A stretch of DNA of 39,325 bases. Source: Candidatus Paceibacter sp. (GTDB taxonomy: Bacteria > Patescibacteriota > Patescibacteriia > Magasanikbacterales > UBA922). Position numbers and translations under genes: made by a program. The notes beneath the pieces were generated by a model that was not told where the DNA came from, made no database searches, and worked only from the letters and a program-made list of their open reading frames with translations. The stretch is from positions 1-39,325 of the forward strand of contig DYFM01000012.1 of the NCBI GenBank assembly GCA_020725175.1, given 5' to 3'. This document shows, one piece after another, positions 31,711 to 39,325 of this stretch. Position 1 is the stretch's first letter. Every line of letters begins with the position of its first letter.

Positions 31711-32274
31711 ATGAAAAAACTGCCAAGAGGACGGCAGGTGGCGGTAGCGGGCGGAGTACTCGCCGTCGCTACCCTGGTCGTCCTCATCGTGGCGGTCGGC
31801 TATTATGCCGTGAAGACGGTAGACATGGCCGACCGCCTCACCCGCCTCGAGCTCAGAGATGGGCTCGAGGCGGACGGCCGGCTGGCGGCCGTGGACGCCA
31901 GCACCGAACAACTGTTTCTGGAGGGGGCCGTCGCCCGCATGGAAGCGCGGCGGCTGTCCACCCTCCTCGCGGAGCATAGCGCTGAACTCGCTATGCTCCG
32001 CACCACGAAAACCGAGCTTGCCCGGCTTCGTGAAGAAGTCGGGCAGCTCATGAGCGAGGTGGAGGTGCTCAGTCTGCTCGTGCTGAGCCCACCACCGGCA
32101 GATTCGTCGCCCTCCGCCGGTCCTGCGCGCCGTTCATTCGGCGTGCGGGCGGAGGGGGGTGTGGTCCTCATTTTCCGGTCCCGAGCCGAGGCCGAAAAGG
32201 CCATCGAGCTCGGGGCCGTTGAAGTCGCCGGGGAGAGCTTGCTCGTGCTCTCCCCGGAAGTACTCAGTTGGTAG
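31711..32274 (+). CDS. GC-island 1 gene A: TM plus coiled-coil protein, unknown
   Basis: SD ggaggtgac before ATG; TM VAVAGGVLAVATLVVLIVAVGYYAV; coding region made of consecutive hairpins. Confidence 0.8.
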   Translation: MKKLPRGRQVAVAGGVLAVATLVVLIVAVGYYAVKTVDMADRLTRLELRDGLEADGRLAAVDASTEQLFLEGAVARMEARRLSTLLAEHSAELAMLRTTKTELARLREEVGQLMSEVEVLSLLVLSPPPADSSPSAGPARRSFGVRAEGGVVLIFRSRAEAEKAIELGAVEVAGESLLVLSPEVLSW

Positions 32275-32327
32275 ACAACCGCCGGCGGTTTGGGCACGGT
32301 GCTTGGGCCGCTGGCAAGGAGGGTGAA

Positions 32328-33347
32328 GTGAGTTCGAAAAAACAGGCGGCGACCATCAGGCTCCTCCTGGTGGTCGCGCTCCTGGTCCCGGTTTCGGCCC
32401 CGGGACAGGAGCTGGCGTCGGACCTTCCGACGCCGATCGACGTGGTGCCGGTCCCGAAGTACATCGGGCCGTGTCCGCTCCAAGCGGACGCGGTTCAGTA
32501 CATCTGGACCGGCGAGGCTGGTGAAGAGGTGCCGGCCGGCTTCGAGCCGAAATGCCCGGCTGGCACGATTCCTGGGGTGGTGGGTACTGCCGACCACCAC
32601 CCTCGCGCCCGTGAGGGGCAGGACCTCCTCGATTCACTCGGGCGGGCAGCGAAAGTTGCTCCGCCCGGGTGGACGGGTGAGTGGTGTGGTTTGGGACCCA
32701 CACCGATCCTGTCCCGAGGCAAGCCGGTGGCGGCGGTGGCGTGTGTCACGCTGCCGCCGTTACCTGAACCAGGCCCCCCTGGCCCGCCCGGACTGCCCGG
32801 GCAGCCGGCCGAGCCAGGTCAGCCCGGACCAGCGGGCGACCCGGCTCCGGCCGGGGCACTCAGCGTCGGTGCGACGACGCGAGTGCTCGGCATCGGGGGG
32901 CAACAGTTGTTTCTAGCTGGAGTGAGGGGGCGGTGGGCCATACCGCTCCGCTACGGCCAGGAATTCGCCGTTCAACTCTTTATCGACGGTGGGGGAAGCC
33001 TCGCCGACGAAATGGAGTGGACGGCGGCGATGACGACCGGGGGCGGTGTGGAGTACCGTCCGTGGAATTTCCTTGGCGTGACTGCCGAGGGGTTTTACGG
33101 GCGGTCGAGCTGGCACATGTTTGGTGGGTGGTTCCGGCAGTTTGCCGGGGCCACCGCCGGGCTTGATGCCCGCCCCATCGCCCTCGGGGGGACCCAGAAC
33201 GCTTTTTGGCGAGACTTCCTCTCCCTTCGGGGAGGGGTCGGGATCGCCGAGGTCTGGTTCCCCGGCGGCATCAACTCCGACACCGTCATGGTGTGGGAGT
33301 TCGGTGCCGCGTTGATGTTCCGGTTTGGCGGCGAAAAGAGTAAGTAG
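32328..33347 (+). CDS. GC-island 1 gene B: secreted 4-Cys / collagen-like / beta-rich protein
   Basis: SD aggagggtga before GTG 32328; signal peptide; PKYIGPCP..CPAGTIPGVVGTADHHP..WCG; GPPGPPGLPGQPAEPGQPGPAG. Confidence 0.85.
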   Translation: MSSKKQAATIRLLLVVALLVPVSAPGQELASDLPTPIDVVPVPKYIGPCPLQADAVQYIWTGEAGEEVPAGFEPKCPAGTIPGVVGTADHHPRAREGQDLLDSLGRAAKVAPPGWTGEWCGLGPTPILSRGKPVAAVACVTLPPLPEPGPPGPPGLPGQPAEPGQPGPAGDPAPAGALSVGATTRVLGIGGQQLFLAGVRGRWAIPLRYGQEFAVQLFIDGGGSLADEMEWTAAMTTGGGVEYRPWNFLGVTAEGFYGRSSWHMFGGWFRQFAGATAGLDARPIALGGTQNAFWRDFLSLRGGVGIAEVWFPGGINSDTVMVWEFGAALMFRFGGEKSK

Positions 33348-33374
33348 TCGCCAACCGGAACTCAGACGCCCCAT

Positions 33375-33450
33375 GCTCTGCCGGGGCAAATATGGCAGAG
33401 CTACCCACGACGTCCGGGAAACGTGGACGTAGGGGTGTGGGCACGATGAG
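33375..33450 (+). other. Structured GC-rich 3' region of island 1
   Basis: gctctgcc/ggcagagc (33375-33401), acgtcc/ggacgt, gggcac/gtgccc stems. Confidence 0.55.
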
Positions 33451-33511
33451 CTTTCTCTTAGTGCCCCCTTCAACAATCTTTCTTAATTTGATGGAGAGAG
33501 TGCTGAGGGAA

Positions 33512-33540
33512 AAAAATTCACACCTCTTAACGAGGTGTGA
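33512..33540 (-). terminator. Terminator-like hairpin for reverse-strand transcription
   Basis: Reverse strand ttcacacctcgttaagaggtgtgaattttttt. Confidence 0.65.
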
Positions 33541-33553
33541 AGTTGTTTAGAGG

Positions 33554-33833
33554 TGTAAGAATTAACAGCGTTGTATAAACTTTTGAATCCCAATAAACAT
33601 AAACAGGTGCACCAATTGCTCTTGAAAGTATTTCATATAACAAAGTCTTTTCTTCATAATTACTCCCGAAAGATATTACGATTTTTGGCCTCGCGAGGCC
33701 AAAAATCGTAATATTATTTCGCAAAATTGTGTCCGTAAATGTTTGACAGAGCATTAAAGTATCTAAAGCAATTGTTTCACTAAGTGCTTTCATGTAATTT
33801 TAAAAAGTATATACAACGCTGTTAATTCTTACA
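33554..33833. mobile_element. 280-bp element with 24-bp perfect terminal inverted repeats and a 42-bp perfect central palindrome; nature uncertain
   Basis: TGTAAGAATTAACAGCGTTGTATA at 33554-33577 and its exact reverse complement at 33810-33833; palindrome 33673-33714. Confidence 0.55.
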
Positions 33834-33852
33834 GATAAGATCAAAAATAATT

Positions 33853-36087: not shown

Positions 36088-36090
36088 TCA

Positions 36091-36121
36091 AACACACTGC
36101 GATTTGGCAGTGTGTTTTTTT
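36091..36121 (+). terminator. Rho-independent terminator
   Basis: acacactgc-gatttg-gcagtgtgtttttttt. Confidence 0.8.
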
Positions 36122-36148: not shown

Positions 36149-36177
36149 TTGACAAAAAGTAAAAAATGTGCTAAAAT
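36149..36177 (+). promoter_or_regulatory. Putative promoter of GC island 2
   Basis: TTGACA-N17-TAAAAT. Confidence 0.65.
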
Positions 36178-36208
36178 ATGTAGTCATTTGTCAGCTTTTT
36201 TGTATAAG

Positions 36209-36260
36209 TTGTGGCTCATATTGTTTTCTTTTATGTAAAAGAAAACAATATGGCCCACAA
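36209..36260 (+). promoter_or_regulatory. Long AT-rich hairpin containing the start codon (ATG 36250) of GC-island 2 gene
   Basis: ttgtggctcatattgttttctttt-atgt-aaaagaaaacaatatggcccacaa; 23 of 24 positions pair (one G-T, one C-C mismatch). Confidence 0.9.
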
Positions 36261-37305
36261 GCCATTCCCCGCCGCAGGGCGGGGGACCACTGTTTTTACG
36301 GTGGTCCTGATCCTCGCCATTGTGGCGGGGATCCTTTGCCCGGCCACGGTGGCTGGGCAAGAAACTTCCGCAGGGCTGACCCAGCCTGCGGCGGCTGAGG
36401 TGGTCAATCAGACCCCTCAGCCGAAATTCATCGGCGCCTGCCCCACCCAGGGCGGCGGCGTCGAGTGGATCTGGGTTGGCCGGCGGGGGAGCGTCCCTCC
36501 CGCCGGTCAGTTCCAGTGCCCCGAGGGGACCATCCCCGGGGTAGTTGGAACCGCCGATGCCCACCCGGAGGGTCGTGGTGGGCAGGACGATCTTGACGGC
36601 GCGCGGGCCAGCGCCGTCGCCCCGACCAACTGGGATGGTCGGTGGTGCGGGGTCTCTGCCACGGCAGTAGACTCCGCTGGTCCGGGGTCGGCAGCGATTG
36701 CCTGCATCGCTGCCCCCCCCTCCCCTAAGTCGCTGAAAGGCGACAAGGGGGAGAAAGGCGAACCAGGAGAGCCTGGTCGCGACGGGATCGACGGTGAGAG
36801 CATCGTCGGTCCCGCAGGTCCGCCCGGGGCGAGCATGGTGCTCGCCCCCTTCACCGGCGCGGCGGCCGGTGGAGACGCTGACGGCCGACTCTTCGTTTCG
36901 GCGAAGATCGGTCTCGAACTCCGTCTGGAGCAGTTCGTGCTCGAGGCGGAGGTCAGCGGGGCACACGCCCCCGAGGGATCCCTGGACCGTCGCTGGTCCG
37001 GGGAGGTGACGGCGCGCATCGGTGGCGCCGTTCACCGGTCACTCGACCTCCTGGCCGTTGGGAAATTCGGCCAGGAGTCGTTTGACCCCCTCGGGGGGTG
37101 GATGCGGCGCAGCTGGGGAGCTGGCGCCGCGGTGGACTTCCGTCCACTGGCGCTCGTCTCGGAGCGTTGGTGGGCGGAGGTGTTGGAGGTTCACCTCCAG
37201 GCGGTCGGCGGCCAGGAATGGCAGCCAGGAGACCTCCTGGAGGACGCCCGCCCCACCTTCGGGTGGGAAGCGGGTGTGAACCTCCGTTTCCCGATCGGCC
37301 TGTAA
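36250..37305 (+). CDS. GC-island 2 gene: secreted 4-Cys / collagen-like / beta-rich protein, paralog of 32328-33347
   Basis: Signal peptide; PKFIGACP..CPEGTIPGVVGTADAHP..WCG; KGDKGEKGEPGEPGRDGIDGE. Confidence 0.85.
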   Translation: MAHKPFPAAGRGTTVFTVVLILAIVAGILCPATVAGQETSAGLTQPAAAEVVNQTPQPKFIGACPTQGGGVEWIWVGRRGSVPPAGQFQCPEGTIPGVVGTADAHPEGRGGQDDLDGARASAVAPTNWDGRWCGVSATAVDSAGPGSAAIACIAAPPSPKSLKGDKGEKGEPGEPGRDGIDGESIVGPAGPPGASMVLAPFTGAAAGGDADGRLFVSAKIGLELRLEQFVLEAEVSGAHAPEGSLDRRWSGEVTARIGGAVHRSLDLLAVGKFGQESFDPLGGWMRRSWGAGAAVDFRPLALVSERWWAEVLEVHLQAVGGQEWQPGDLLEDARPTFGWEAGVNLRFPIGL

Positions 37306-37329
37306 AAGGGTCGGCCGGGACACCTGAGG

Positions 37330-37550
37330 GAGCTTGTCTGCCCCTCTATCCAAAAACCCCGCCATTCGAGAATGGCGGGGACAGACAGCTACGGGCCTTC
37401 TCTCCTTCGGCCCTCAGCACCAGCTGAAAATGAAGGGGACGGCGCGCGTCTAGCCGTAAGGACGCAAAAATGGGCCCCGACGAAGGTCGTCGGGGTAGGG
37501 GGAGCTGGGTGAGGCGGCGGTGATCAGACTCGATCAGCCGCCTCGCCCCC
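37330..37550 (+). ncRNA. Structured GC-rich region downstream of island 2 gene (3' UTR or ncRNA)
   Basis: Stems 37357-37380, 37475-37495 and a 17-bp stem 37507-37548. Confidence 0.55.
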
Positions 37551-37608
37551 AACACAGTCTTCCGATGCAGGTTTGTATAGGGAGAGTGGGTTGGTGGGAT
37601 GAGTAAAA

Positions 37609-37647
37609 AAATAAAAAACTTCATCAATATGATGAAGTTTTTTATTT
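37609..37647. terminator. Bidirectional terminator hairpin
   Basis: aaataaaaaacttcatc-aatat-gatgaagttttttattt. Confidence 0.8.
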
Positions 37648-37666: not shown

Positions 37667-39097
37667 TTACTTTTTTCTTTTCCCTCCCTTTTTTTGTCTA
37701 GACTGGGGATTAGTAGTTTTCCCTTTTTCTCTGCCCTTTTCTCTGCCCTTTTTTTCTTTCGTTGTTTCCAATCTTCCGCCGTACCTTCTTGCTGCTTGTG
37801 AAGGAGATTCATCGCCCACTAAGGCATGAACGGGTTTTTTGGTTGTACTTCTCATGAGATATCGTACCGGGTATTGCCTGCCACCACTCCCTTTTTCTGC
37901 TAATGTGTCTACATAGAAGACTGGACATAATTCTCCTTCTATCCAGCTGAGATGACTTCCTTTACCTCGTCCAAACCGCCATAAATCTTTGTTTTCTGGA
38001 TCTTTTTTGTTTGGTTCGTACTTGAGTATTTTTCCGGCGAGACCAAGAAGAATAAGTGGTTTATTTTCTTGTAGCAAAGACTGTAATTCCTTAATGATTT
38101 CTTCTAACACTGTTTTTTTGGTTTGCGATAGCTCTCGACAAGATTTTTTTAATGGTTCGTTAGAAGAAGTTTTTCCTTGCTCAATATTATTCATGAGGTC
38201 TCGGATGTTACCTTGTAAACGTTCGACAGCCGAAACAAATTCTTTCAAGTCGGTAGCGAGTTGATAGGTCTCAGTAAACTCTTTTTTTGTAGCGGCTGTC
38301 TTCCGGTCTGGAACTGCCCAGAATTTTTTCCCATATTCAACTTGTTGTTGTTCTTGAGGAGAATCGGTAGGAAAAGTACGTAATACTGCTTGGAGGGATG
38401 CCATGTTTTTTGATTGCAGTCGTGAATTGACTCTCTCCTGAATACCTTTTGCTTCCTCCTGAAGTACCAAAAAAGTTTCTTGACGCAATTCTTCCAGTTG
38501 TCGTACCGCATCAGCATATTCTTTAGACTTGATTTTACTTTCCAGTGATCCGGCTGCGTCTCTAGCTTCTTTTAATGTTCGTACCCAATTGATGCTTTCT
38601 TCAGAAGAGATACTTACTGTCTCGATATCACTACGAAGTTGTGCTGATAGCCAGTTCATCTCCGTGTCGGTGGTATCTGCTAGTGCAAGATTTGATACTT
38701 CGTCTAAAATTACTTTGATTTGAAGTAGTTGGGCTCGTAGATCGATAGCTCGTATCAGAAGTGATTGGATTTTTTTTCTATCTACTTTTTCGTTTGGTTC
38801 TAAACTTTCAAATAATTGCGCGCTTGTCTCCTCTTCTACTCCCTCACTTTCGTCATTAGTTTCATTGTCAGCAGCTTGTACAAGAGTAAAATTTCTCTCC
38901 AATTCTTCTGCGAGAGTATTGCGTTGGTCAAGCAATCTACCTAGGTCTGGAAGTTTAAATTCCTTTTGAATATCAGCAAAGGTGAGTGGTTGGTTGCGTT
39001 CTATAGCTTGTTGACGAAGCTCCTCAATTCCTTGTAGACGTTCTAGTTGTTTATGTTCGATTGTGTGTTGTTTTTCTGAAGTGGGTTGGGGTAACAT
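37667..39097 (-). CDS. Hypothetical coiled-coil-rich protein with highly basic C-terminus
   Basis: Long helical/charged ORF; KKGREKGREKGKTTNPQSRQKKGGKRKK tail. Confidence 0.7.
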   Translation of the reverse strand: MLPQPTSEKQHTIEHKQLERLQGIEELRQQAIERNQPLTFADIQKEFKLPDLGRLLDQRNTLAEELERNFTLVQAADNETNDESEGVEEETSAQLFESLEPNEKVDRKKIQSLLIRAIDLRAQLLQIKVILDEVSNLALADTTDTEMNWLSAQLRSDIETVSISSEESINWVRTLKEARDAAGSLESKIKSKEYADAVRQLEELRQETFLVLQEEAKGIQERVNSRLQSKNMASLQAVLRTFPTDSPQEQQQVEYGKKFWAVPDRKTAATKKEFTETYQLATDLKEFVSAVERLQGNIRDLMNNIEQGKTSSNEPLKKSCRELSQTKKTVLEEIIKELQSLLQENKPLILLGLAGKILKYEPNKKDPENKDLWRFGRGKGSHLSWIEGELCPVFYVDTLAEKGSGGRQYPVRYLMRSTTKKPVHALVGDESPSQAARRYGGRLETTKEKKGREKGREKGKTTNPQSRQKKGGKRKK

Positions 39098-39163: not shown

Positions 39164-39192
39164 TTGACAGAAAGTCAATACTATGCTATACT
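39164..39192 (+). promoter_or_regulatory. Putative promoter of a third GC-rich island
   Basis: TTGACA-N17-TATACT. Confidence 0.65.
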
Positions 39193-39237
39193 ATGTTGTT
39201 TTACGGTTAATGATTCGTTCTTGTACAATTTATTTTT

Positions 39238-39325
39238 CGCTTGCACATCATTTTTTCTTTAGGTTTTTTGCCTTAACATAGGGAAAAAATGATGCGCGAG
39301 CGTCTATCCCGCCGTGAGGCGGGGG
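39238..39325 (+). other. Start of a third GC-rich hairpin-coded gene: AUG-containing AT-rich hairpin followed by GC hairpin, cut by window edge
   Basis: cgcttgcacatcattttttctt / gggaaaaaatgatgcgcgagcg stem (one mismatch), then cccgcc-gtga-ggcggg. Confidence 0.65.

Follow-up and report, generated by a model that had tools for sequence, protein, structure and literature searches.

The structured 3' tail of a GC-rich bacterial gene as the end of a message predicted to fold throughout

Introduction

The hairpins that follow the stop codon of a GC-rich gene in the window, by which we mean the whole 39,325-nt stretch of DNA analysed here, lie far beyond chance, but they constitute neither a separate ncRNA nor a 3' element of a specific kind; one unit ends with them. 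The message to which this tail belongs is predicted to fold along its whole length, in a unit composed of promoter, gene, tail and terminator. We judge it somewhat probable that, in this small-genome lineage, a few chromosomal genes form a discrete class with a surface-protein cluster at its centre, and that their messages are hyper-structured from the start hairpin to the 3' tail; nature would then have its own version of designed super-folded mRNAs, and cells a gene-expression strategy undescribed in the literature searched. Among open-licence papers, we found none on such structured messages in these bacteria.

Results

Transcription unit of island 2

The unit opens on the + strand with a promoter at 36149-36177 (TTGACA, a 17-nt spacer and TAAAAT, with TG before the -10 element; 11 of 12 consensus matches), which follows the epimerase gene and its terminator-like hairpin (36090-36117). 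The leader (36178-36249) gives a z of -5.4, and a 25-bp start hairpin at 36209-36260 (+ strand), 92% complementary and with a 2-nt loop, buries the ATG at 36250. The gene (36250-37305, + strand; alternative start GTG at 36211) has a GC content of 70%, compared with 41% for the genome, and encodes a protein of 351 aa with a signal-peptide-like N-terminus, a short collagen-like stretch and a strand-rich C-terminal part, the predicted structure of which is poor (mean pLDDT 37). It is followed by the structured non-coding 3' tail (37306-37600, + strand, about 300 nt; z -6.3) and by a perfect 18-bp A+T-rich hairpin with A and T runs at 37609-37647 (+ strand), the putative terminator of the unit and possibly also of the converging gene at 37667-39097. 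The neighbours of the unit are ordinary bacterial genes.

The minimum free energy (MFE) of 36205-37600 is -917 kcal/mol, or -0.66 kcal/mol per nucleotide, and almost all of the fold consists of short local hairpins; the background pairing level is regained beyond 37600 and outside the transcription unit generally. The tail is assigned to the throughout-folded message because of these two features together. A reading made from the sequence alone had placed a structured stretch at 37330-37550, after the stop codon. The hairpins that it described there are real, but its limits were too narrow and the structure does not begin at the stop codon: it extends from the start hairpin, via the coding sequence, to the terminator.

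Fold of the 3' tail

The tail (298 nt) folds with an MFE of -153.4 kcal/mol, compared with -117.8 +/- 5.6 kcal/mol for dinucleotide shuffles, none of 200 of which was as low; an independent run gave z values of -6.1 for the sense and -4.3 for the antisense strand. Three + strand hairpins were recovered at the places claimed for them, with pair probabilities of about 0.97-1.0 and of 0.35-0.85 for terminal pairs. These are CCCCGCCATT-CGAG-AATGGCGGGG at 37357-37380 (10 bp; 0.97-1.0, loop-closing pair 0.73), CCCCGACGA-AGG-TCGTCGGGG at 37475-37495 (9 bp; 1.0, loop-closing pair 0.75) and a 17-bp bulged hairpin at 37507-37548, which consists of a 12-bp part with one U.G pair (A.C in the opposite strand), a 2-nt bulge and a further 5 bp. 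The hairpin TCAGC-ACCA-GCTGA (37414-37427, + strand) lies inside a longer stem of the MFE fold. Perfect hairpins of at least 9 bp number four, a count that includes overlapping windows of the same hairpins, against 0.006 expected from dinucleotide shuffles.

Two further proposals fared less well. The outer stem AGCTtGTCTG/CAGACAGCT has a pair probability of about 0, and forcing it would cost 9.6 kcal/mol. A pseudoknot suggested at 37431-37465 is geometrically possible, and its GCGTC/GACGC stem is predicted (37446-37465, + strand; pair probability 0.96-0.99), but the ACGGC/GCCGT half (37439-37457, + strand) is possible without being favoured, with a probability of 0 in the nested fold; an H-type motif of this size was found in 4.8% of shuffled tails.

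The tail had been described as having no obvious open reading frame (ORF), and it indeed holds no start-to-stop frame of at least 80 codons on the + strand. Past its TAA, the gene meets no further in-frame stop for 68 codons, until TGA at 37510-37512, as is unsurprising at 62% GC. The GC content by codon phase, 0.75/0.57/0.77 in the gene, becomes 0.66/0.63/0.57 in the tail, such that the coding pattern is lost.

Structure at synonymous sites

Synonymous codons were permuted within each gene, which leaves protein, codon usage and GC content as they were. Against these shuffles, full-length folds of three island genes gave z values of -16.5 (island 2), -13.4 and -15.0, whereas five control genes from the same window gave +0.4 to -1.3. 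With 200-nt tiles and 100 shuffles, the values were -11.4 for the island 2 gene (isl2), -10.1 and -10.8 for the second and first genes of island 1 (isl1b and isl1a), -10.6 for the island 3 gene (isl3), -11.0 for C20 and -9.2 for C14. Perfect hairpins of at least 7 bp number 13 in isl2, compared with 2.2 in synonymous shuffles (maximum of 7 in 200). In a genome scan that covered 453 of the 1013 ORFs, longest first, four genes had z values of -12 to -18, one had -6 and the rest lay near 0. An artefact of GC content was considered and rejected on three grounds: the genes of the GC-rich control phage phiC31 (61-69% GC) have a mean z of -0.47, the shuffles keep codon usage, and a GC-poor relative also contains outliers.

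Other structured genes of the genome

The first gene of island 1 (31711-32271, + strand, 187 aa; z -10.8 sense, -9.1 antisense) encodes a protein of membrane or coiled-coil type by inspection and has a strong GGAGG ribosome site. The second (32268-33347, + strand) encodes a paralogue of the island 2 protein (38% identity, E 2e-46), and its segment 32355-33344 gives z values of -10.1 sense and -7.2 antisense. A comparison with the region 33350-33450 had been proposed; the island 1 tail there (33348-33548, + strand), which ends in a terminator-like hairpin, is also structured, with a z of -5.3 for 33345-33560, including that hairpin, and -2.9 for 33348-33500 alone.

Island 3 is represented in the window by a promoter, a start hairpin and the first codons (39164-39325, + strand) and is cut by the contig end. 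Its start hairpin (39238-39302) holds the start codon in the 3' arm, analogous to that of island 2. The island probably continues at L034:1-1430 on contig C28, across a putative join C23/C28 in a draft genome of 33 contigs; the z values there are -10.6 for L034:1-1173 and -4.5 for the tail. Contig C28 opens with a matching GC-rich gene of the cysteine-rich, collagen-like lipoprotein type with its own structured tail. GC-rich genes of the island 3 type also lie at contig ends in several relatives, and assemblies may therefore lose such genes.

Further structured GC-rich genes are located at L059:1962-2876 (z -11.0, the same z as C20), L055:278-925 (-9.2, the same z as C14), L063:11526-12383 (- strand; -5.1) and L074:16918-17628 (-4.5). 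These four lie outside the surface-protein cluster, and one product is NUDIX-like. In total, this genome contains about six to eight hyper-structured genes.

The window also holds a quasi-palindrome of about 290 nt at 33545-33845 (- strand; MFE -94.4, z -9.1), the tip of which, at 33673-33714, is a perfect palindrome of 42 nt. At L044:680-860, a partial copy (73% over 126 nt) keeps the tip CCTCGCGAGG, and the stem beneath it differs on both sides with pairing still intact. The quasi-palindrome differs in kind from the island messages and is a candidate for an ncRNA or for a mobile hairpin element. A REP-like palindrome, CCGCCCAAGGCGGGTCCGCCTCGGGCGG, occurs in more than 20 copies in the genome, for example at L034:1399-1430.

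Relatives

In a single-contig relative of the same family (G027, 32% GC; 800 kb scanned), 700 ORFs have a median z of -0.5. The outliers include L265:10512-11537 (z -14.0), L268:12349-13044 (-9.8), L264:609-1292 (-7.5) and four genes of one cluster at L237:6417-12068 (-7.8 to -9.1); the hyper-structured genes of this relative number about seven, including a surface-protein gene cluster. Two other outliers, L234 and L251, were left out as apparent overlaps with tRNA genes, judged from their translations. Even by eye, hairpins can be made out in the coding sequences L265:10512-11537 (46% GC) and L268:12349-13044 (39% GC), the products of which are an unknown protein and a weakly acetyltransferase-like (GNAT-like) protein, respectively. 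In other relatives, GC-rich genes have a mean z of -3.1, compared with -0.6 for low-GC genes, and many of the former encode cysteine-rich, collagen-like or lipoprotein-like proteins.

The isl3 protein and a lipoprotein of G027 have similar C-terminal parts (E 3e-4), and homology also links the adjacent strand-rich genes in G027, G023 and G059. The sequences suggest a surface-protein cluster conserved across relatives, in which we infer a place for isl1b and isl2 by position and appearance only. By inspection, a terminator follows close after the stop codon in G027; long structured tails were seen only in the genome to which the window belongs. The one homologue of the island 2 protein was its paralogue in the same genome, with none in 58 related genomes or in the set of genome contigs, and its matches in viral contigs were confined to the collagen stretch. 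C20 had no homologue in 143 other genomes. In a scan with ThrRS, the best matches (50-58% identity) were spread over several lineages, Microgenomates and Gracilibacteria among them, so that placing the genome in the Patescibacteria is tentative.

Discussion

Message lifetime or translation

The reading that we prefer, and to which we give an even chance, is that selection has favoured a generically double-stranded, nuclease-resistant and long-lived mRNA, a function that we infer. On this view, selection for strong pairing would have acted on the transcript from end to end while its protein was still encoded, and the tail would be the 3' UTR. Such a message would form a near-continuous row of short GC-rich hairpins, with the start hairpin at the 5' end and the terminator at the 3' end as closures; little single strand would be left for ribonucleases, cutting would therefore be slow and the mRNA unusually long-lived. 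The beneficiaries would be a few proteins, mostly of the cell surface, and the tail may keep the untranslated end folded where ribosomes give no shield. In exogenous designed mRNAs, although not in bacteria, coding-sequence structure lengthens functional half-life (PMC6883848), and design algorithms exploit coding-region structure for this purpose (PMC10499610). Several points weigh against the long-lived mRNA. Structure in the coding region would be melted by translating ribosomes, the half-life precedent is non-bacterial, and the long structured tails were seen only in the genome of the window; as to a focus on surface proteins, some members (the NUDIX-like and the weakly GNAT-like products) are not obviously of that kind. 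Of the earlier suggestions, that of a 3' UTR needed for stability comes nearest, in that the tail is bounded by the stop codon and by a terminator-like hairpin of the same unit and continues the structure of the coding sequence.

The main rival, which we regard as unlikely but worth serious attention, is that the start hairpin and the ORF-wide structure throttle translation, slowing initiation and elongation, for instance in step with secretion and folding, and that the tail is a by-product. It holds this position because in E. coli the structure of an ORF is a predictor of its translation efficiency (PMC5318159), and all the more because start codons are buried here: the island 2 ATG lies inside the 25-bp hairpin and the island 3 start in a hairpin arm. 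Many members also look secreted, and the same E. coli relation makes selection for high output alone an odd proposition. On the other hand, a weak ribosome site would be a cheaper route to the same effect, the first gene of island 1 has its strong GGAGG site, and a structured untranslated tail of 300 nt is left unexplained.

Density rather than shape of pairing

Over the 313 codons across which isl1b and isl2 can be aligned, 3 of 325 base pairs are common, which is within the range of shuffles, and the third-position identity is 0.37 while the protein is conserved. Compensatory changes showed no excess in alignable homologues of related genomes compared with an identity-keeping control. A conserved shape was rejected on these two results; individual pairs are unconserved, and it is therefore pairing density rather than shape that appears to be selected. 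One exception was seen by eye, a signal-peptide hairpin common to isl2 (36306-36333) and isl3 (L034:51-78), with a matched C-G to G-C change between the copies.

Ordered structure in RNA viruses has been proposed as a shield against attack on single-stranded RNA. Pairing that is generic and not shape-specific is the expected product of such pressure, so that the messages might here be shielded from toxins that cut single-stranded RNA, from defence nucleases or from hybridizing or antisense RNAs; no such nuclease was found here and only a few genes would be protected, and we consider this improbable. It is less probable still, to the point of being very doubtful, that the RNA itself is the product, as a scaffold or as an RNA for export or packaging that carries its signal in the tail. 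Extreme predicted stability and a structured non-coding tail would suit such an RNA; against it, what is conserved between the paralogues is the protein and not the third positions or the base pairs, and the tails have neither a common sequence nor an Rfam match. The specific packaging signal once suggested for the tail is unsupported for a like reason, since the three island tails share no sequence (blastn, 7-base words) and base pairs are unconserved even in the alignable coding regions.

Sense RNA rather than DNA palindrome

Palindrome-perfecting mutation, or selection for cruciform DNA, would act independently of strand, and the strongly structured antisense strands, the almost complete lack of an energetic sense bias in island 3 and the abundance of palindromic repeats in the genome are all consistent with it. 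Helices were located by Watson-Crick pairs only and the single mismatches inside them counted, G.T and A.C being expected in about equal number if the origin lay at the DNA level. On the sense strand, 53 G.U were found against 8 A.C (p 3e-9), compared with 61 against 45 in synonymous shuffles; the ratio was 17:2 in island 3 alone and 24 to 8 in the structured genes of the relative, and the tails alone, with two G.U and no A.C, give too few to judge. The sense minus antisense z in six genes was -2.3, -4.3, -3.6, -1.1, -3.8 and -3.0, or about -7 combined by Stouffer's sum. By these predictions the folded object is the sense RNA; given the mismatch count, a DNA-palindrome origin fits poorly, and we regard it as largely refuted and most improbable.

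Whether the tail is a separate element

We likewise hold it most improbable that the tail acts as a discrete ncRNA or as a specific 3' regulatory element: its compact hairpins and possible pseudoknot would suit one, but its pairing is no denser than that of the gene upstream, a scan for sigma-70-like promoters found no + strand site between 36177 and 37600, none of 4227 Rfam families reached its gathering threshold in the region (matches to the tail at permissive E values lay far below the thresholds), and the 1.24-Mb genome holds no second copy, just the tail's own palindromes and chance matches. The independent ncRNA envisaged by the sequence-only reading is thus not borne out. A conserved 3' UTR element, in the sense of the same structure after homologous genes, was not found among the island tails, where island 2 could be compared with paralogues only, there being no homologue in the 58 related genomes. 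The earlier reading would have abandoned its proposal if no conserved structure followed the homologues; this is the case for any specific structure, but not for dense structure. The search for related tails comes back empty because density is maintained rather than particular stems.

Relation to known systems and implications

The long-lived, densely paired message that we prefer has several partial counterparts. Like the genome-scale ordered RNA structure (GORS) of some positive-strand RNA viruses, it combines dense pairing over coding and non-coding RNA, beyond what shuffles of sequence order give, with no single conserved shape: the pairing excess covers the whole molecule, the sense strand is the paired one, and pairs vary while density is kept. 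Unlike in those viruses, the RNA is not a viral genome and involves no RNA replication, but comes from a chromosomal gene with a promoter among ordinary bacterial genes; the structured genes are few and are outliers in their own genome, with z measured against synonymous shuffles. As in the mRNAs of LinearDesign (PMC10499610) and Mauger et al. (PMC6883848), codon choice raises coding-sequence pairing, which in those mRNAs lengthened half-life; the engineered messages differ from the present ones, which are apparently evolved and bacterial and include the start region and the 3' UTR. The ORF-wide mRNA structure of E. coli (PMC5318159) is similarly a property of whole ORFs, but there it concerns translation differences across the genome, whereas the present case is one of a few extreme outliers among genes without detectable synonymous-site structure.

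Bacterial mRNAs can be stabilized by 5' stem-loops and 3' terminator hairpins. The island 2 message is likewise closed by hairpins at both ends; unlike such messages, its interior is also folded and its 5' hairpin covers the start codon. That a handful of genes here and in a relative are predicted to fold in this way, and nearly all others are not, suggests an unrecognized means of giving particular messages a long life or a tight throttle. If this is true, the synonymous sites of a few bacterial genes would be under strong selection for message folding, and these genes would be a natural system in which to ask whether the lifetime or the translation of bacterial mRNA is set by the structure of the coding region, a question so far studied mainly through designed mRNAs and genome-wide correlations. 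Synonymous shuffling together with the count of G.U against A.C would provide a simple finder for such genes, and the finding would draw attention to a conserved locus for surface proteins in small-genome bacteria, which are poorly understood.
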